This document shows, in pieces, positions 7,331 through 59,301 of a stretch of DNA of 64,000 nucleotides. The stretch spans positions 1 to 64,000 of the forward strand of contig JACZJC010000049.1 of NCBI GenBank assembly GCA_014860745.1, read 5' to 3'. The position numbers were made by a program, and so were the translations under genes. How positions within the stretch are numbered: the stretch's first letter is position 1; each line of letters opens with the position of its first letter. A model generated the notes under the pieces. It was not told the DNA's origin and searched no databases. It saw nothing but the letters and a program-made list of their open reading frames with translations. The DNA comes from Anaerolineales bacterium (GTDB lineage: Bacteria > Chloroflexota > Anaerolineae > Anaerolineales > Villigracilaceae).

Positions 7331-7508
7331 ATATGGGGGGGCAGTTTAAGTCAGACCCTAAATATGGTAATTGTTGCTTTATATTATAGCACTCAAATGT
7401 TCGAATTCAAGAGGCTAAGGGGTAATGGGTAATAGGGAAAAGATCGTGGATAGCGCATAACCTCACCGTACTTAGGAAGGGTTTCAACCCGCACGACGCG
7501 AAGAACAA
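7331..7508. other. Intergenic stretch upstream of the PRTase operon
   Basis: No gene seen. It holds a G8 tract (7336-7341 region), the 16-base motif AAGTCAGACCCTAAAT (7348-7363) whose reverse complement recurs at 35033-35048, and a heptamer repeat GGTAATG-GGTAATA at 7421-7434. The minus-strand promoter of the PRTase operon should lie here, but I cannot pick it out with confidence. Confidence 0.5.
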
Positions 7509-23985: not shown

Positions 23986-25187
23986 AAATGTCAGAGCGCG
24001 ACCGACGGGATTGGAGTCTGCTCATTTTTATTGTGCCGTTCGGCATTCTGTTAATGCTGATCACAGGACAATTTGCCATGCGCATCATCCCTCAGTGGAT
24101 TTTGAATGCGGGGATGGGGTCTAACTTAAAAGTTGAAACGGCTGGCGGGCAACAAACTGTTTTGCACCCCTTATTTAATATCCAGATATTAACTCCATTT
24201 TCCTGGCAAAACACCTATCTTACACCTAATGCGGATAGCGGATTCGTCTTCCCTCCATTTGTTGTGCTGGAGCCAAGCGCCACTCCTACACCTACTGAAG
24301 CACGGCCTACAGAAACTGCCACACCACCGCCGGCCACGGTTTCACCATCGGCGACAACACCTGTTTCAACTGTCACACCTCCTCCCACAGAAGTTGTGAC
24401 AACGCCGCCTGTCACATCACCGGCAACATGCCAAGATTCCAATGCTTCAAACTTTGGCGGACCGCTGCCATGTACCTATCCACCCACAACCTGTCAGGAC
24501 CCTGCTGCAACGAACTTTGGCGGACCCTTGCCATGTACGTATCCACCTACAACCTGTCAGGACTCCGCTGCTACGAACTTTGGCGGCCCCCTGCCATGCA
24601 CGTATCCACCTACGTCAGGCGGAGTGACATCCACACCAGACCCATCTTACACACTTGTTACTCCTGCTCCTGCTGATTTAGGAGTTGGAACTCCACCTGA
24701 CGACAATATCGGTAATATTACAGATGGACAATATGTGGTGATTGGATTGAGCATTGTTGTTGGGCCCACCCCGGATAATAACTATGATCTGGTGCTTTAT
24801 GAATACAACAATGGCGGGTCTATTTACCTGGACTGGATTATCGTTGGCATTTCGAATTCACCTACTGGAAGCGAGTATTATGAAGTATTTAACTGGGGAA
24901 ACAACATTCCCGATGCAAATACAAATGTCGACACAAATGAGTTGGTAGCAGATCCCAATTGCCCGTCTGGTGAAGAGTGTGATGATCGCGAAATTCCCGA
25001 GTCGGATTTGTATCCGAACCCTGGTGCAGGTATTCTGATTGATGTGGATACCGCGACAAGCGCTCCGCCCGCCGGTACCTATGATTACATCGTGGTCATT
25101 TCCCCCAATGGCGGACCGGCAAATGGCGATGCACAGGTCGATTCAATCGAAGTTACTGAAGTGCCAATCCCAACTCCCCCGCCATAG
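23982..25187 (+). CDS. Membrane-anchored extracytoplasmic protein with three 21-aa Cys repeats
   Basis: 401 aa. One N-terminal membrane helix (LLIFIVPFGILLMLITGQFAM) is followed by a Thr/Pro/Ser-rich stalk (about residues 100-148). Then come three tandem 21-residue repeats of the form TCQDxxAxNFGGPLPCTYPPT (24426-24614). A C-terminal beta-rich domain of about 180 residues follows, with acidic Asp/Asn loops (DTNELVADPNCPSGEECDD). Each repeat has two Cys and resembles short disulphide repeats in surface proteins. The gene overlaps the histidine-kinase stop, so the two are coexpressed; it may be an accessory sensor or a surface protein. No enzyme motif seen. Confidence 0.68.
   Translation: MKMSERDRRDWSLLIFIVPFGILLMLITGQFAMRIIPQWILNAGMGSNLKVETAGGQQTVLHPLFNIQILTPFSWQNTYLTPNADSGFVFPPFVVLEPSATPTPTEARPTETATPPPATVSPSATTPVSTVTPPPTEVVTTPPVTSPATCQDSNASNFGGPLPCTYPPTTCQDPAATNFGGPLPCTYPPTTCQDSAATNFGGPLPCTYPPTSGGVTSTPDPSYTLVTPAPADLGVGTPPDDNIGNITDGQYVVIGLSIVVGPTPDNNYDLVLYEYNNGGSIYLDWIIVGISNSPTGSEYYEVFNWGNNIPDANTNVDTNELVADPNCPSGEECDDREIPESDLYPNPGAGILIDVDTATSAPPAGTYDYIVVISPNGGPANGDAQVDSIEVTEVPIPTPPP
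24426..24614 (+). repeat. Three tandem 63-bp coding repeats
   Basis: Three in-frame 63-base units encode TCQDSNASNFGGPLPCTYPPT and two close variants. The DNA of units 2 and 3 is nearly identical, which suggests recent duplication. Confidence 0.88.
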
Positions 25188-31922: not shown

Positions 31923-32402
31923 TTAATACCATGAGCATGTGTCTTTTTTACTGCTGTAATTGAAATCGTCACAATTGTTAATATCACGCAAATCTTTGCA
32001 TGCGCTCTTACTTCTCACATGTATGGCATTCCCTGGAGTACACGCGAGCTGAGTTGGAGTTGATGAGGCAATGAGGGTTGGTGTGTTGGTTGGGGTTGAT
32101 GATGCAATAAGAGTTGGTGTGTTGGTTGGAATAGCAGATGCAACAGGAGTTGACGCATCGGTTGGAATTGCTGACGTAACAGGAGTGAGTGATGGGCTTA
32201 ACCCTGGGATGTTTAGCACTCCGTCATTCACACTATACCCGCCAGATACTCTTTCTGTAAGATCGGCTGAAAGGGCTTTAATTTCTGGACCGAAAGCCAT
32301 CCAAACACCGGCTCCTATTAATCCGGCCAGAATAGCGGTAAGTATATATTCCACGAGCCCTTGTCCCCTCTCGCTTTTTTTAGTTAAAATCCTTCGATTC
32401 AT
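31923..32402 (-). CDS. Flp-like type IVb pilin with Thr/Pro repeat stalk
   Basis: 159 aa. The start KKSERGQGLVEYILTAILAGLIGAGVWMAF is a class III/IVb prepilin sequence. A basic leader ends in Gly, Glu is at +5 (G|QGLVE), and a hydrophobic helix follows. Unlike ordinary Flp pilins, it continues with about 60 residues of near-repeats (SAIPTNTPTLIAS, STPTNTPTLIAS). A four-Cys tail follows (LACTPGN...KSACKDLRDINNCDD...DTCSW). No tad genes are near, so assembly would depend on machinery elsewhere. It could be a pseudopilin or a surface-displayed Cys-rich domain. Confidence 0.72.
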   Translation of the reverse strand: MNRRILTKKSERGQGLVEYILTAILAGLIGAGVWMAFGPEIKALSADLTERVSGGYSVNDGVLNIPGLSPSLTPVTSAIPTDASTPVASAIPTNTPTLIASSTPTNTPTLIASSTPTQLACTPGNAIHVRSKSACKDLRDINNCDDFNYSSKKDTCSWY

Positions 32403-53278: not shown

Positions 53279-54163
53279 ATGGAGGATGGCTTTTCGTTGA
53301 AGGATTCTTGCATTGGAATTATCGGACTGGGACTCATGGGCGGCTCGCTTGCCATGCGTCTCAAGGGAAAATGCGCCCGCCTGATCGGATTCGACTCGCA
53401 TCCTCCCACGCTCGAAATTGCTCTTTCCAAGGGAATCATTGACCACGCCGAAAGTGATTCTGCCAACTTCCCCGCCCAAGTCGACATCTTGATTCTCGCC
53501 ACCCCCGTCCCTTCCATCCTCGAAACCCTTCACCAAATTTCAATTACCAATCACCAATTACCAAAACACCCCTGCATCGTCATGGACATCGGCTCGACCA
53601 AAAGGGACATCCTGCAAGCCATGATTGCCCTGCCCGTAAACTTCGACCCCATTGGCGGGCATCCCATTTGCGGAAAAGAAAAACTCGGCCTGGAAAACGC
53701 CGATGTGAATTTGTATCAGAACGCCCCGTTCATCGTCACCCCGTTGGAACGAACGACGGAACGGGCAAAATCGGCTGTGGGACAAATCATCTCTGCCATC
53801 GCTGCGGACCTCGTTGAAATGTCCGCCAATGAACATGACCATATCCTCGCATCCACGAGCCACCTTCCGTTTTTGCTCTCCTCCGCTCTCGCCCATACCA
53901 CCCCGCAGGAATTCGCTCCCTTTATTGGGCCAGGCTTCCGCTCGACATCCCGTCTTGCAGGCACACCCGCCCACATGATGCTTGGAATTCTGAAATCGAA
54001 TCGGGACAATGTTCTGAATGCAATTCAATCCTTTCGTAATTCGCTCGATGAAATTGAAATCGTTCTTCGAGATGAAAAATATGCTGAATTGGAAAACCTG
54101 CTGAATCAGGCTTGCTCAAACTATTACTCCATCACAGACAATCCTCCGATACCCAGTCACTAA
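53279..54163 (+). CDS. tyrA: Prephenate dehydrogenase
   Basis: 294 aa. An N-terminal Rossmann fold with IGIIGLGLMGGSLAMRL (near residue 12) binds NAD(P). The family landmarks ILATPVPSILETL, VMDIGSTKRDI and IGGHPICGKEKLG follow, then the helical substrate part with STSHLPFLLSSALAH and GPGFRSTSRLAGT. It turns prephenate into 4-hydroxyphenylpyruvate for tyrosine. Between QI and KHPC the segment SITNHQLP comes from a three-unit heptamer repeat (53541-53561) that keeps the frame. It starts two bases after aroF. Confidence 0.92.
   Translation: MEDGFSLKDSCIGIIGLGLMGGSLAMRLKGKCARLIGFDSHPPTLEIALSKGIIDHAESDSANFPAQVDILILATPVPSILETLHQISITNHQLPKHPCIVMDIGSTKRDILQAMIALPVNFDPIGGHPICGKEKLGLENADVNLYQNAPFIVTPLERTTERAKSAVGQIISAIAADLVEMSANEHDHILASTSHLPFLLSSALAHTTPQEFAPFIGPGFRSTSRLAGTPAHMMLGILKSNRDNVLNAIQSFRNSLDEIEIVLRDEKYAELENLLNQACSNYYSITDNPPIPSH
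53541..53561 (+). repeat. Heptamer repeat inside tyrA
   Basis: CAATTAC-CAATCAC-CAATTAC: three 7-base units (21 bases, frame kept) in the coding sequence, the same unit as in aroE. Confidence 0.82.
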
Positions 54164-54180
54164 TTCTCTTTTGCACCCTC

Positions 54181-55461
54181 ATGCGAATCCTTCCGATCCA
54201 TCACCCTCTCAACGCCACTGTGCGCGTTCCTGGCTCCAAGTCGCTGACCAACCGTGCCTTGCTCATCGCCGCGCTCGCGGATGGAACCACGCACCTGACC
54301 AACGCCCTGTTCTCCGATGACTCGTGCTACTTCGCCAAAGCATTACATATTTTGGGGTTTGATGTTCAACTCGACGAGGCCAATCAAGAAATGACGGTCA
54401 CAGGCTTGGGCGGAAGAATCCCTGCGAAGAAAGCCGAACTCTTCATTGGCAATGCAGGTACGGCGGCGCGTTTTCTTTCTGCGTTCCTCACTCTTGGCAA
54501 TGGGGAATATCTTTTGGACGGCGATCCGCGCATGCGCGAACGTCCCATCGGCGATTTGGCTGCTTCACTCACTCAACTCGGCGCGAAATTGGAAACGACC
54601 AACAATTGTCCACCTGTGAAGGTTACGGCATCTGGCTTACGCGGCGGTAAAACAACAATGGCAGGTGACATTTCATCTCAATTCCTGTCCGCCCTTTTGA
54701 TGGTCGCTCCATACGCGCAAAGCCCAATTGAATTCGTCCTTTCCACTGAACTCAATTCCAAACCTTACGTGGACATGACCATCGCCATCATGAAAGACTT
54801 TGGCGTGGAAATTGAACGTCGCGGTAACGAACACTTCACTATCCGTCCCTCTTTCTTCTTTCCTCTTTCTTCTTATTCAATCGAATCTGACGCATCCGCC
54901 GCCGCCTACTTCTTCGCCGCGCCTGCCATTTGCGGCGGGACGGTAAAAGTGGAAAATATCTCGCGTAACTCCGTGCAAGGCGATATCCGCTTTTTGGATG
55001 TGCTTCAAAAAATGGGCTGTGTTGTTACAGAATCTGGCAACTCGATCACGGTCCATCGCCCGCAGGGATCGTCCATCGTCGGAATTGATGTGGACATGCG
55101 CGACATCCCCGACACCGCCCAAACCCTCGCCGCCATCGCCCCCTTTGCTGGTTCATCGACCCGCATTCGCGGCATCGCCTCTGCGCGTGTGAAGGAGACC
55201 GACCGAATCCACGCTACCTGCACAGAATTGGCGCGGCTCGGCGTCCGTGTGGAAGAAGCTGATGATGGAATGACCATCCATCCCGTAGAAAAGATGCGTC
55301 CTGCCGCCATCCAGACCTATAACGATCATCGCATGGCAATGGCATTCTCCCTCATCGGTCTGCGCTTCGACGGCGTCACCATCGAAAACCCAGCCTGTGT
55401 TTCCAAGACCTTTCCAAATTTCTTTGAAGTCCTTGACCAATTGAGCAAGCACCCTGCATGA
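54181..55461 (+). CDS. aroA: 3-phosphoshikimate 1-carboxyvinyltransferase (EPSP synthase)
   Basis: 426 aa from ATG 54181. The signature VRVPGSKSLTNRALLIAALADGTT (near residue 15) has the Lys and Arg that bind shikimate 3-phosphate. LFIGNAGTAARFLSAFLTLG (near 88) is the PEP-binding segment. DPRMRERPIGDL, YNDHRMAMAFSLIGL and the catalytic Asp/Lys positions in the second half are present. It transfers enolpyruvate to shikimate 3-phosphate. The stretch PSFFFPLSSYS near residue 225 is encoded by a four-unit heptamer repeat (54849-54876). Its stop overlaps the aroE start (ATGA). Confidence 0.93.
   Translation: MRILPIHHPLNATVRVPGSKSLTNRALLIAALADGTTHLTNALFSDDSCYFAKALHILGFDVQLDEANQEMTVTGLGGRIPAKKAELFIGNAGTAARFLSAFLTLGNGEYLLDGDPRMRERPIGDLAASLTQLGAKLETTNNCPPVKVTASGLRGGKTTMAGDISSQFLSALLMVAPYAQSPIEFVLSTELNSKPYVDMTIAIMKDFGVEIERRGNEHFTIRPSFFFPLSSYSIESDASAAAYFFAAPAICGGTVKVENISRNSVQGDIRFLDVLQKMGCVVTESGNSITVHRPQGSSIVGIDVDMRDIPDTAQTLAAIAPFAGSSTRIRGIASARVKETDRIHATCTELARLGVRVEEADDGMTIHPVEKMRPAAIQTYNDHRMAMAFSLIGLRFDGVTIENPACVSKTFPNFFEVLDQLSKHPA
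54849..54876 (+). repeat. Heptamer repeat inside aroA
   Basis: CTCTTTC-TTCTTTC-CTCTTTC-TTCTTAT: four pyrimidine-rich 7-base units giving the peptide SFFFPLSSYS. Confidence 0.75.
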
Positions 55462-56363
55462 ACTCAACCAATTACCAATTGCCAATTACCAATTACCAAC
55501 TGGGCTTGATCGGCCACTCCCTCGGCCACTCCCTCTCGCCCAAGATCCACACTGCTGCCCTCAACGCCTGCAACTTGCAAGGAACCTATTCCCTATTCCC
55601 CGTTCACCCCGGCGACAAACAGGGATTGAAGGATTTGCTTGCTCGTGTCCGCGCTGGTGAGTTGCACGGACTCAACGTCACCATTCCGCACAAACAGAAT
55701 GTCATTGAGTTAATGGACGGACTCACGCCCACCGCCCAAGCCATCGGAGCAGTCAACACGATCTATTTGCGTGAAGATAAATTGATCGGTGGCAATACCG
55801 ACGCGCCAGGTTTTTTATCGGACTTGAAGAGGTATATGGCAGAGTCCCCCTCTCCCCAAATGGGAGAGGGGCTAGGGGTGAGGGGGAAATCAGCATTGGT
55901 GTTGGGAGCAGGCGGTTCAGCACGGGCGGTTGTCTACGCCCTTCTCAACGACGGTTGGAATGTAACAATCTCATCCCGCCGACTTGAACAAGCCCAAGAA
56001 CTTGCTAAATCCTTCCCCGATTACCAACCTGCCCTAAGCATAGCCGAAGAGGTACCAATTACCAATTTCACCAACTTTCCACTTTCCACTTTCCACTTGA
56101 TCGTCAACACCACACCTCTCGGCATGGCACCCAATACAGATCAATCGCCCCTGCCCGAAAATCTGTCACTACCTTCCAATGCTTTTGTGTATGATCTTGT
56201 TTACAATCCAAGAGAAACGAAACTTGTCAAATTAGCCCGCGCGCAGGGACTGTCCGCAACCACTGGACTTGGCATGTTGATCGAACAAGCCGCCCTCGCC
56301 TTCGAAATCTGGACAGGTCACAACCCGCCGCGCGAAACTATGTTTCAAAGCGTTGATCAATAA
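55458..56363 (+). CDS. aroE: Shikimate dehydrogenase (NADP)
   Basis: 301 aa, a little longer than the usual ~275. LGLIGHSLGHSLSPKIHTAAL holds the shikimate-binding Ser pair (normally near residue 14; here 25-28). LNVTIPHKQNVI has the catalytic Lys, GAVNTIY and GNTDAPGF the Asp, and LVLGAGGSARAVVYAL the NADP loop. The extra length is explained by three repeat-derived segments: NYQLPITNYQLG at the N-terminus (heptamers), SPSPQMGEGLGVRGK before the NADP loop (palindromic element) and PITNFTNFPLSTFH (heptamers). It reduces 3-dehydroshikimate to shikimate. Confidence 0.93.
   Translation: MNSTNYQLPITNYQLGLIGHSLGHSLSPKIHTAALNACNLQGTYSLFPVHPGDKQGLKDLLARVRAGELHGLNVTIPHKQNVIELMDGLTPTAQAIGAVNTIYLREDKLIGGNTDAPGFLSDLKRYMAESPSPQMGEGLGVRGKSALVLGAGGSARAVVYALLNDGWNVTISSRRLEQAQELAKSFPDYQPALSIAEEVPITNFTNFPLSTFHLIVNTTPLGMAPNTDQSPLPENLSLPSNAFVYDLVYNPRETKLVKLARAQGLSATTGLGMLIEQAALAFEIWTGHNPPRETMFQSVDQ
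55469..55496 (+). repeat. Heptamer repeat at the aroE N-terminus
   Basis: CAATTAC-CAATTGC-CAATTAC-CAATTAC, four units directly after the start codon region. Confidence 0.85.
55845..55886. repeat. Palindromic micro-element inside aroE
   Basis: CCCCCTCTCCC...GGGAGAGGGGCTAGGGGTGAGGGGG, in frame, encoding SPSPQMGEGLGVRG. A related element is inside aroKB at 57968-58015. Confidence 0.75.
56056..56097 (+). repeat. Second heptamer repeat inside aroE
   Basis: CAATTAC-CAATTTC-ACCAACT-TTCCACT-TTCCACT-TTCCACT: six 7-base units (42 bases) changing from one unit sequence to another, frame kept. Confidence 0.82.
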
Positions 56364-56404
56364 TTATTTCTTCTTTCATCTTTCCTTCACACGGATAAAT
56401 TTTT

Positions 56405-56432
56405 CACTTACTACTTATCACTTTCCACTTGG
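56405..56432 (+). repeat. Heptamer repeat carrying up to the aroC ribosome site
   Basis: CACTTAC-TACTTAT-CACTTTC-CACTTGG: four units. The last bases run into GGAG (56431-56434), the aroC ribosome site. Confidence 0.68.
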
Positions 56433-56440
56433 AGACCCAC

Positions 56441-57652
56441 ATGCCCTTACGCTTCCTCACTGCTGGCGAATCCCACGGACCATCGCTCACCACCATCCTC
56501 GATGGCATTCCCGCAGGACTTCCCCTCACGACCGAGATCATCAACAAGGAACTCGCCCGCCGTCAGCACGGATACGGCTCAGGTGGACGGATGAAGATCG
56601 AAAAGGACACTGTTCAGATTCTTGGCGGCGTGATAGGCGGCGAAACGACAGGCGCGCCGATTTCCTTGCTCGTGCAAAACGCAGACCATGTCAAGTGGAA
56701 GGGCAAAACCATCGAGCCAATGACAACCCCGCGCCCAGGTCATGCGGATTTAACAGGCGCGGTCAAATATGGCTATAAAGATTTGCGCCCCGCCCTCGAA
56801 CGCGCGTCTGCCCGCGAGACCGCCATGCGCGTCGCCGCTGGTGCAGTGTGCAAGCATTTCTTGAATCAATTTGGAATCATCGTCGGCGGATACGTTTCAT
56901 CCATTGGCGAAATCCAAACAGATTTTGGCGACATGCCCTACGAAGAACGCTTCATCCGCGCTGAAGAGTCCGATGTGCGCTGTCCCATCGAAACATATGC
57001 AAATCAAATGCGAGCTGAAATCGAAAAGACCATTCATGGCAAAAATACATTGGGCGGCGTGCTTGAAATTGTCGCGCTCAATCTTCCAGTGGGCCTCGGC
57101 AGTTTTGTCCAATGGGATCGCCGTCTCGAAGCCAAACTTGCCCACGCCGTCATGTCCGTGCAAGCCATCAAAGGCGTGGAAGTCGGCGATGCGTTCGAGA
57201 ATGCAAAACGGATTGGAACGGAGGCCCACGACCCGATCCAATTGCAGAATGCAGAAGGCGGAATGCAGAATACGAACTCACGACCTTCGACCTTTGACCT
57301 TCGACGTTCAACGAACCGTGCAGGCGGAATTGAAGGCGGAATCAGCAACGGACAGCCGATCATCATCCGTGCCGCGATGAAACCGATTGCCACCACGCTT
57401 CTCCCCCAGCCGACAGTTGATCTTGCTTCGGGAACAGAATCTCCCACTAAATATGAACGCTCCGACTTTTGCCCCGTCCCCCGCGCCGTTCCCATCCTCG
57501 AAGCGATGGTCGTCTTCGTCCTTGCCGACGTCTTGCTCGAAAAACTTGGCGGCGACTCCATGGACGAAATCAAACCGCGCTTTGAATCGTTACGCAAAGC
57601 CACGCTCGAAGACCTGCCAATGGACAACATCCCGCACGTATTTTGGGAATAA
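56441..57652 (+). CDS. aroC: Chorismate synthase
   Basis: 403 aa from ATG 56441, seven bases after GGAG. The three family signatures are present: GESHGPSLTTILDGIPAGLPL (residues 9-29), HGYGSGGRMKIEKD with GGVIGGETTGAPISL, and RPALERASARETAMRVAAGAVCKHFL. The C-terminal SDFCPVPRAVPILEAMVVFVLAD closes the fold. It needs reduced FMN and removes phosphate from EPSP to give chorismate. An insert of about 23 residues (QNAEGGMQN...STFDLRRST, near 268) comes from two heptamer repeats and lies just before NRAGGIEGGISNGQP. Confidence 0.93.
   Translation: MPLRFLTAGESHGPSLTTILDGIPAGLPLTTEIINKELARRQHGYGSGGRMKIEKDTVQILGGVIGGETTGAPISLLVQNADHVKWKGKTIEPMTTPRPGHADLTGAVKYGYKDLRPALERASARETAMRVAAGAVCKHFLNQFGIIVGGYVSSIGEIQTDFGDMPYEERFIRAEESDVRCPIETYANQMRAEIEKTIHGKNTLGGVLEIVALNLPVGLGSFVQWDRRLEAKLAHAVMSVQAIKGVEVGDAFENAKRIGTEAHDPIQLQNAEGGMQNTNSRPSTFDLRRSTNRAGGIEGGISNGQPIIIRAAMKPIATTLLPQPTVDLASGTESPTKYERSDFCPVPRAVPILEAMVVFVLADVLLEKLGGDSMDEIKPRFESLRKATLEDLPMDNIPHVFWE
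57244..57312 (+). repeat. Heptamer repeats inside aroC
   Basis: GCAGAAT-GCAGAAG-GCGGAAT-GCAGAAT, then ACGAACT-CACGAC and CTTCGAC-CTTTGAC-CTTCGAC-GTTCAAC. Two different heptamer families are joined in one coding insert. Confidence 0.82.
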
Positions 57653-57771: not shown

Positions 57772-59301
57772 ATGACCCATATCTTCCTTTACGGTCCCCC
57801 AGGGACAGGCAAATCCACCATCGGCAAATTGCTGGCGCAGAATTTACGCCTGCCATTCATTGACCTTGACCGCGTCATCGAAACAAACGCGGGCATGTCC
57901 ATTTCGCAGATCATGGAAGGACAGAGCGAATCCGCTTTCCGTGAGATGGAAACATCCGCGCTGAAATCCCTCACCCCGTCCCCTCTTCCTGAGGGAGAGG
58001 GGCAAGGGGTGAGGGATAGCGTCATCGCCCTCGGTGGCGGTGCATTGCTCCGTGACGAAAACCGCGCATTCGCAGAATCCAACGGAAGCGTCCTTCTGCT
58101 CATGGCGGAGCTGCCCACCTTGCTGGAACGCATGAAAAAAGAATCGGGAAAACGTCCGTTGCTGGCTGGTGATCTGAGAACAAAACTCACCGTCCTGTTG
58201 GAAAAACGCAGCGAACATTACAACTCCTTCCCGCTAAAACATCATGTAGATGGAAAACCTGCCGAGCAAAATGCGTATCTCGCGCAAGTTGCGCTGGGCA
58301 GGCATCACCTCTCCGCAATGGGCGAATATGATGTCATCGTAGGGCAAGTTTCTAACGTGCCAACCCTACCGAATCCCATCATCGTCACCGATGAGAACGT
58401 GGCGAAATTTCACCTTGAAAAAATCCAAACCCTCTTCAACGCCAAATCTGTTATCGTGCCTGCTGGGGAAAAGCACAAAAGACTCGAAACAGTTTCCCAT
58501 CTGTGGAAAACTTTCCTTGAAAACGGATTGGACCGCAAGAGCACAGTCATTGCTCTCGGCGGCGGCGTGATCGGCGACATGGCGGGCTTTGCCGCCTCCA
58601 CCTACATGCGCGGCGTCGATTGGATCGGCATCCCGACAACCCTGCTTTCGATGGTGGACGCTTCGCTCGGCGGGAAGACTGGATTCGATCTACCTGAGGG
58701 GAAAAATCTCATCGGCTCGTTTTACCCGCCGAAACTTGTTCTGGCTGATCCGCAATTCCTTGAAACATTACCCGAACGCGAAATGCGCTCAGGCATGGCG
58801 GAAGTGGTCAAGCATGGCATCATCTCCGACCCTGATTTATTCGCCATGTGCCAGCGCGGCATGGACTGGGTAAAAGCCAATCTCGAAGAAGTGATCAAGC
58901 GCGCGATGGCGGTGAAGATTCAAGTCATCGAGGAAGATCCATACGAAAAGGGAATTCGCGCGAAATTGAATCTCGGTCACACGGTTGGTCATGCAGTGGA
59001 ACTTGTCAGTAAATATAAATTGCGGCATGGAGAGGCGATCTCCATTGGCATGGCGGCTGAGGCGAGGTACTCTGCTCGGGTGGGGCTGGCAGCCGCCGGC
59101 TTGGTTGAAGCGATCGAGGCGACGTTGTCGGCATTAGGTTTGCCCATCCAAATTCCCGAAGGAATGCCGCGGGAAGAAATCATCCGCGCAATGAGGGTGG
59201 ATAAAAAGAAGAATGCGAAATCCATCCGTTTTGCGCTGTCGATTGAAATTGGTAAAGCGGAATTGATGGATGTCGATAATCTGGAGTCGGTTTTGGAGTG
59301 A
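57772..59301 (+). CDS. aroKB: Fused shikimate kinase / 3-dehydroquinate synthase
   Basis: 509 aa. Residues 1-170 are shikimate kinase: P-loop IFLYGPPGTGKSTIGKLLA (residues 4-22), IDLDRVIE with the shikimate-binding Asp, and ALGGGALLRDE. Residues 180-509 are dehydroquinate synthase: VIVPAGEKHKRLETV, ALGGGVIGDMAGFAASTYMRGVDWIGIPTTLLSMVDASLGGKTGFD, and the metal-binding GMAEVVKHGI and NLGHTVGHAVEL. Fusing step 2 and step 5 enzymes is known from some other bacteria (Thermotoga-type AroKB). Two palindromic micro-elements are inserted in frame (LTPSPLPEGEGQGVR near 67; VGQVSNVPTLPN near 190). Confidence 0.92.
   Translation: MTHIFLYGPPGTGKSTIGKLLAQNLRLPFIDLDRVIETNAGMSISQIMEGQSESAFREMETSALKSLTPSPLPEGEGQGVRDSVIALGGGALLRDENRAFAESNGSVLLLMAELPTLLERMKKESGKRPLLAGDLRTKLTVLLEKRSEHYNSFPLKHHVDGKPAEQNAYLAQVALGRHHLSAMGEYDVIVGQVSNVPTLPNPIIVTDENVAKFHLEKIQTLFNAKSVIVPAGEKHKRLETVSHLWKTFLENGLDRKSTVIALGGGVIGDMAGFAASTYMRGVDWIGIPTTLLSMVDASLGGKTGFDLPEGKNLIGSFYPPKLVLADPQFLETLPEREMRSGMAEVVKHGIISDPDLFAMCQRGMDWVKANLEEVIKRAMAVKIQVIEEDPYEKGIRAKLNLGHTVGHAVELVSKYKLRHGEAISIGMAAEARYSARVGLAAAGLVEAIEATLSALGLPIQIPEGMPREEIIRAMRVDKKKNAKSIRFALSIEIGKAELMDVDNLESVLE
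57968..58015. repeat. Palindromic micro-element inside aroKB (kinase part)
   Basis: CCCTCACCCCGTCCCCTCTTCC-TGAGGGAGAGGGGCAAGGGGTGAGGG, in frame, encoding LTPSPLPEGEGQGVR just before the kinase ALGGGA motif. Same family as the aroE element. Confidence 0.78.
58339..58369. repeat. Palindromic micro-element in the aroKB linker
   Basis: GTAGGGCAAGTTTCTAACGTGCCAACCCTAC has inverted ends (GTAGGG/CCCTAC) and an inner GGCA...TGCC pair. It encodes VGQVSNVPTLP between kinase and synthase domains. Confidence 0.55.

Follow-up and report, generated by a model that had tools for sequence, protein, structure and literature searches.

Short tandem arrays of seven-nucleotide units are read in frame within four consecutive genes, tyrA, aroA, aroE and aroC, of an aro operon from an uncultured Anaerolineales bacterium (Chloroflexota). 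The arrays are of the known heptameric-repeat kind; their intragenic, slot-conserved form, in which the unit is swapped between species, is new, no description of it, or of heptamer repeats of this type in Anaerolineae, having been found in the literature searched. The DNA analysed, here called the window, is a stretch of 64,000 nucleotides, contig C74 of a MAG of 4.32 Mb in 82 contigs. The order of the operon is aroF, tyrA, aroA, aroE, aroC, aroKB, and the DAHP synthase is 80–91% identical to its counterparts in many Anaerolineales MAGs.

Two methods found period-7 arrays where an earlier note on this DNA had placed them, in tyrA, aroA, aroE (two slots) and aroC and once before aroC, and the open frames of the array-bearing genes are intact. 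In the window, the arrays of the operon, their host genes and the palindromic repeats lie on the forward strand. In tyrA (prephenate dehydrogenase; 53279–54163; PF02153, PF20463), CAATTAC in 3.4 copies (53541–53564; residues 88–96) occupies the loop between the nucleotide-binding strand and CIVMDIGS, a slot also filled in five other genomes. The aroA gene (EPSP synthase; 54181–55461; PF00275) carries CTCTTTC/TTCTTTC at 54848–54874 (residues 223–232), where it adds no residues; this slot is filled in about 20 of 47 genomes. In aroE (shikimate dehydrogenase; 55458–56363; PF08501), CAATTAC in 4.7 copies (55467–55499; residues 4–14) separates the start codon from LGLIG, where conservation begins, at a slot that 14 of 51 genomes have filled, with different heptamers. 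Further along this gene, adjoining arrays of ACCAATT (56053–56067) and then ACTTTCC (56074–56098) form residues 199–214 and precede the strand LIVNTTP; a match at 55585–55600 (CCTATTC) codes the conserved YSLFP strand and is probably not an inserted array. An intergenic mixed array of CACTTAC/TACTTAT/CACTTTC (56404–56430) lies upstream of aroC (chorismate synthase; 56441–57652; PF01264), which itself contains GCAGAAT (57243–57271; residues 268–277) and CGACCTT (57281–57313; residues 281–291), the latter coding the second strand of a surface hairpin.

At a stricter lag-7 score of at least 10, the six in-gene arrays stand alone in the whole 64-kb window. Repeats that had also been listed at 7421 (exactly two copies) and 48339 (2.7 copies) proved marginal, the window having several two-copy 7-mer matches of that size. 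Genome-wide counts were made on stretches of 819 kb from the source genome (G000) and 200–358 kb from three others. At a score of at least 14, the 819 kb gave eight arrays of period 7 against none in third-order Markov random sequence and 0–3 for each other period from 4 to 21, period 7 exceeding all of them. Tandem copies of a 7-nt unit, more than chance would give, are a trait that the arrays share with bacterial heptameric STRRs and SSRs. The longest heptamer array in the source-genome sample, a perfect AATCGTC array of 13 copies (L098:1543–1633), lies outside long ORFs. Tandem repeats of longer period also occur in the window: one of 63 bp at 24450–24613, which codes the motif CQDxAATNFGGPLPCTYPPT in a Pro/Thr-rich protein of 401 aa whose N-terminal segment is hydrophobic, and one of 36 bp at 32053–32152 in a reverse-strand ORF of 159 aa whose N-terminus (GQGLVEYILTAILAGLIG) is pilin-like.

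The operon was then compared among 51 genomes placed in one genus, with one genome per species. At least one array is present in the fetched aro stretch of 46 of them and none in the remaining five, counts that are not independent owing to the kinship of the species. Mapped on protein alignments, on which the slot assignments rest, the arrays of the 51 genomes fall at 9–10 common slots: residues 83–101 of tyrA; 139–142, 216–233, 287–300 and 368–376 of aroA; 3–15, 123–147 and 185–215 of aroE; 266–291 of aroC; and the C-termini. The unit at a given slot is another matter. The aroA slot 216–233 holds CTCTTTC in the genome of the window and CAATTAC, CACTTTC, AATCTCC or ACCTTCG in other species, and each of ten slots has accumulated 5–42 unit classes. 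Between species pairs at least 88% identical in aroC, a unit is shared in only one of ten same-slot comparisons, and a slot filled in one sister is frequently empty or different in the other. In the pair G016 and G051 (aroC 94% identical), one aroE slot has very similar flanks in both species; a palindromic repeat fills it in one of them and an array of AAATCGA in the other. Internal stops are absent from all 52 aroE orthologues found. The heptamer content of the slots is thus rewritten even between close relatives while the protein stays readable. What had been described as repeated fixation inside essential enzymes is not an event of one genome: the slots are genus-wide and the heptamer itself turns over. 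At the end of aroKB in the aro locus of G061, a heptamer array of ~170 nt passes from GAGAGTA units to CCAATTA units at one end.

The array-making process acts on DNA, since the period is lost when synonymous codons are shuffled: of 173 in-gene arrays, 170 no longer had it (p<0.01), and the mean score fell from 15.3 to 3.6. A DNA-level origin, as opposed to a repeated protein motif, is again a property of heptameric STRRs and SSRs. Selection for a repeated peptide is ruled out by the same shuffling; furthermore, since 3 does not divide 7, a peptide could recur only after 21 nt, and as many arrays have roughly this length, a single peptide period, no peptide is repeated. Stop codons reveal how the products are sieved. 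Among in-gene units, 17 of 173 (10%) contain a stop in the sense cycle against 98 of 173 (57%) in the antisense, and units with stops make up 12 of 32 between genes and 15 of 18 in arrays overlapping gene ends. Thus frame selection filters a process that itself ignores frames. Of 241 arrays in the aro stretches 173 are intragenic, and 14 of 24 sampled arrays of G028 lie in long ORFs; the arrays depart here from a usual, though not strictly defining, trait of heptameric STRRs and SSRs, that of being mainly intergenic and rare in coding sequence.

Each array had been thought to give an extra peptide. Relative to the array-free median this holds for aroC (+14 aa), the middle of aroE (about +8) and tyrA (+4) and fails for aroA (0 aa). 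Across the genus, added residues accompany arrays in the aroA 139 slot, in aroC and at the aroE N-terminus. The aroA region 280–306 has 25 aa in 16 of 17 array-bearing genomes, the aroA region that carries the array in the window has 36 aa with or without one, and in sister pairs with one array-free member the commonest length difference is zero. In several slots, then, arrays overwrite existing codons and leave length unchanged, so any expansion has to be balanced by loss, or the copying has to replace what was there, which weighs against the slippage reading set out below. AlphaFold models of array-bearing and array-free orthologues place the array segments in low-confidence parts of AroE and AroC. 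The AroE model is of low confidence at residues 1–11, 130–139 (the palindromic insert) and ~191–210 (pLDDT about 62–76), against a core above 90. In AroC, pLDDT drops below 50 at 274–282, the hairpin tip; stretches 47–52 and 99–122 are also of low confidence and have no arrays, and this property is therefore not array-specific in AroC. The comparative data lend good support to the suggestion that a 7-base process is very active and that surface loops tolerate it.

The arrays are probably heptameric repeats of the STRR/SSR kind, produced by active, sequence-biased 7-nt slippage or template switching and filtered by reading frame and loop tolerance. A DNA-level process would copy the adjoining seven nucleotides, by replication slippage or short-range template switching, would prefer certain heptamers and would operate genome-wide in the Anaerolineales lineage. 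In genes, selection would retain in-frame, stop-free arrays in flexible surface loops; and as the aro enzymes would offer several such loops, the same slots would be struck repeatedly and their content rewritten faster than species diverge. In arrays of at least 35 nt, identity between units falls from 0.836 at lag 7 to 0.773, 0.716 and 0.653 at lags 14, 21 and 28. Adjacent units are more alike than distant ones, as predicted for serial slippage, and it is from this pattern that we infer slippage or template switching as the mode of copying. Copying from a fixed, telomerase-like template was rejected; a single template would give flat identity, and similarity decays with distance.

The choice of units is not predicted by plain slippage. 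The vocabulary is narrow, with 119 unit classes in 415 arrays against 349 expected, a narrowness inflated by the relatedness of the species; each class has on average 4.6 one-substitution neighbours within the set, compared with 2.2 in random sets, and arrays at unrelated places of one genome coincide in unit about 18 to 150 times above random. Nor is growth from a local seed directly seen. The slot of an array-free sister shares at least 7 nt with the array unit in 12% of pairs (3% by chance), and in most pairs the unit has no copy there, which leaves room for a rival reading: pre-existing arrays at other places in the genome would serve as donors, and short stretches would be pasted over the slot content by ectopic conversion or by microhomology-driven template switching. 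Such dispersal would account for units that are mostly not local, for a vocabulary common to unrelated sites about 30 times above random, for block replacement without change of length and for inverted partners (at least 10 nt, within 60 nt), which accompany about 8% of arrays against 0.15% expected. Within-genome sharing of units, however, is 3.8% compared with 2.9% after permutation, and 50 of 500 permutations were as high, a weak and non-significant excess; we regard dispersal as possible, and rather unlikely. A machinery specific to the family, either a repair polymerase or a template-switch pathway, which would turn short blocks into sequence-biased heptamer arrays, sometimes with an inverted twin, is more doubtful. 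If such a machinery did operate, protein loops would evolve through repeated overwriting and not by point mutation. Loss of mutS (mismatch repair) or of sbcD (hairpin nuclease) was rejected as a cause, and the presence of a Y1 transposase seems an unlikely one. Each of the three genes occurs in nearly every genome of the genus, with no difference between array-rich and array-free genomes, and most misses are incomplete genomes. In G051 (C73:83704–87597), the mutS match is split at residues 603–606 within one 1312-aa open frame by an insert, in frame and several hundred residues long, that may be an intein.

Arrays are concentrated in the aro genes. Over 18 loci, tyrA–aroC carries 1.15 arrays per kb and its flanks 0.12, and genome-wide density is 0.06–0.07 per kb in G028 and G016. 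This density, at least 10 times that of the surroundings or the genome, together with the fixed positions, would suit a selected function, in which arrays or hairpins regulate the operon as RNA-binding sites or through translation rate; a regulatory role has been proposed for TAACTGA repeats in Beggiatoaceae (PMC4679880). We consider it improbable here, since sisters differ in the unit and in whether an array is there at all, five genomes manage with no array in the aro stretch, and aroF and aroKB of the same operon are almost array-free. The last point makes gene tolerance a likelier source of the hotspot than operon position, and loop tolerance would explain it under the slippage reading preferred above. 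Unrelated genes also bear arrays, which again speaks against a regulatory role, namely the interdomain linkers of E2, glyQS (where slots recur), menE and folC. In glyQS (a glycyl-tRNA synthetase fusion; L211:4297–7356, L244–L273), slots lie near residues 295, 310, 626, 720, 930 and 951; at 295 and 310, about ten residues apart, several species have an array and its reverse complement, an inverted heptamer hairpin. Arrays of three CCAATTA units were found in 6 of the 12 genomes sampled from the source family and in none of 139 other genomes in the phylum.

A G-rich palindromic dispersed repeat is also read in frame in aroE (55846–55884; SPSPQMGEGLGVRG), with a second copy, again in frame, in aroKB (57970–58015). 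Its pattern (GGGAGAGGGGCTAGGGGTGAGGG) has 17 matches in the source genome, two of them 2.1 kb apart in the window. Because its 3′ arm has a period of ~7 nt, the repeat may itself be a heptamer hairpin. Its aroE slot carries heptamer arrays in sisters, and this common occupancy, with the frequency of Y1 transposases in the genus, could point to a dedicated mobile element or REP/RAYT-like system as the writer of the arrays. That is very unlikely: a Y1 transposase is found in 55 of 57 genomes, including the array-free G049, G050 and G063 as well as array-bearing ones, and the arrays have no constant ends. Slot positions are conserved, as old loops common to all orthologues would be; this reading, which deserves hardly any credence, is contradicted by close sisters that lack the inserts or have different ones and vary in unit sequence and length. 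Most of the genomes are MAGs, and still an assembly, binning or chimerism artefact can be dismissed, as separate assemblies, one of them a near-complete contig of 4.74 Mb (G014), carry arrays at the same slots, in frame and without stops.

The reason for the predominance of 7-nt units among the longer repeats of bacteria can be approached here as a comparative experiment, with some 50 genomes, about ten slots and known frames and folds. Where repeats are copied at the DNA level, the loops of essential enzymes prove to be replaceable over and over; protein variation of this origin is usually treated in connection with eukaryotic slippage or with Rickettsia elements. For annotation there is a warning: loop divergence in these genomes reflects repeat turnover and need not be adaptation.

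Like the aro arrays, the palindromic elements of Rickettsia lie within essential genes, at surface sites that tolerate them, and are translated in frame. They are, however, longer palindromes that form defined families, whereas the aro arrays are variable heptamer arrays of 15–60 nt. A constant family with inverted ends, as in these elements or in MITEs, is not what is seen, since unrelated units occur in one slot and only about 8% of arrays have an inverted partner.

Other heptamer repeats have been described with a single unit. In the same phylum, the heptamer-based GATAGRA satellites of Chloroflexus aurantiacus are of one unit type and, unlike the aro arrays, are not described as slots in enzyme genes (PMC6749651). 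TAACTGA repeats of Beggiatoaceae, cyanobacteria and Bacteroidetes are of a single unit that usually lies directly ahead of a start codon, related heptamers being rarely or never repeated (PMC4679880). Some Anaerolineales genomes have arrays of ACTGATA, a rotated TAACTGA, at gene ends; as a whole the arrays have dozens of units and are mostly intragenic. The GGGAATC/GGGGAYT repeats of Xanthomonas and Nostoc, for which a G-quadruplex role has been proposed, are intergenic, under-represented in coding regions and of one unit type (Rehm et al., 2015; PMC4692102). GGGAATC is also found in the aroE slot 123–147 of the Anaerolineales set, and both systems show sites conserved among relatives with extensive variation, and inverted arrangements; the Anaerolineales arrays, in contrast, are intragenic with dozens of unit types.

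The aro arrays belong with the heptameric SSRs described in bacteria (Mrazek, 2007; cited in PMC4679880 and PMC4692102) and the STRRs of cyanobacteria. Those repeats are mainly intergenic, and polymerase slippage has been proposed for them. The 7-nt unit, the few copies, the degenerate units and the several families per genome are common to all. What sets the aro arrays apart from these mainly intergenic repeats is that they recur at set positions within genes for essential enzymes and that the unit there changes from species to species.
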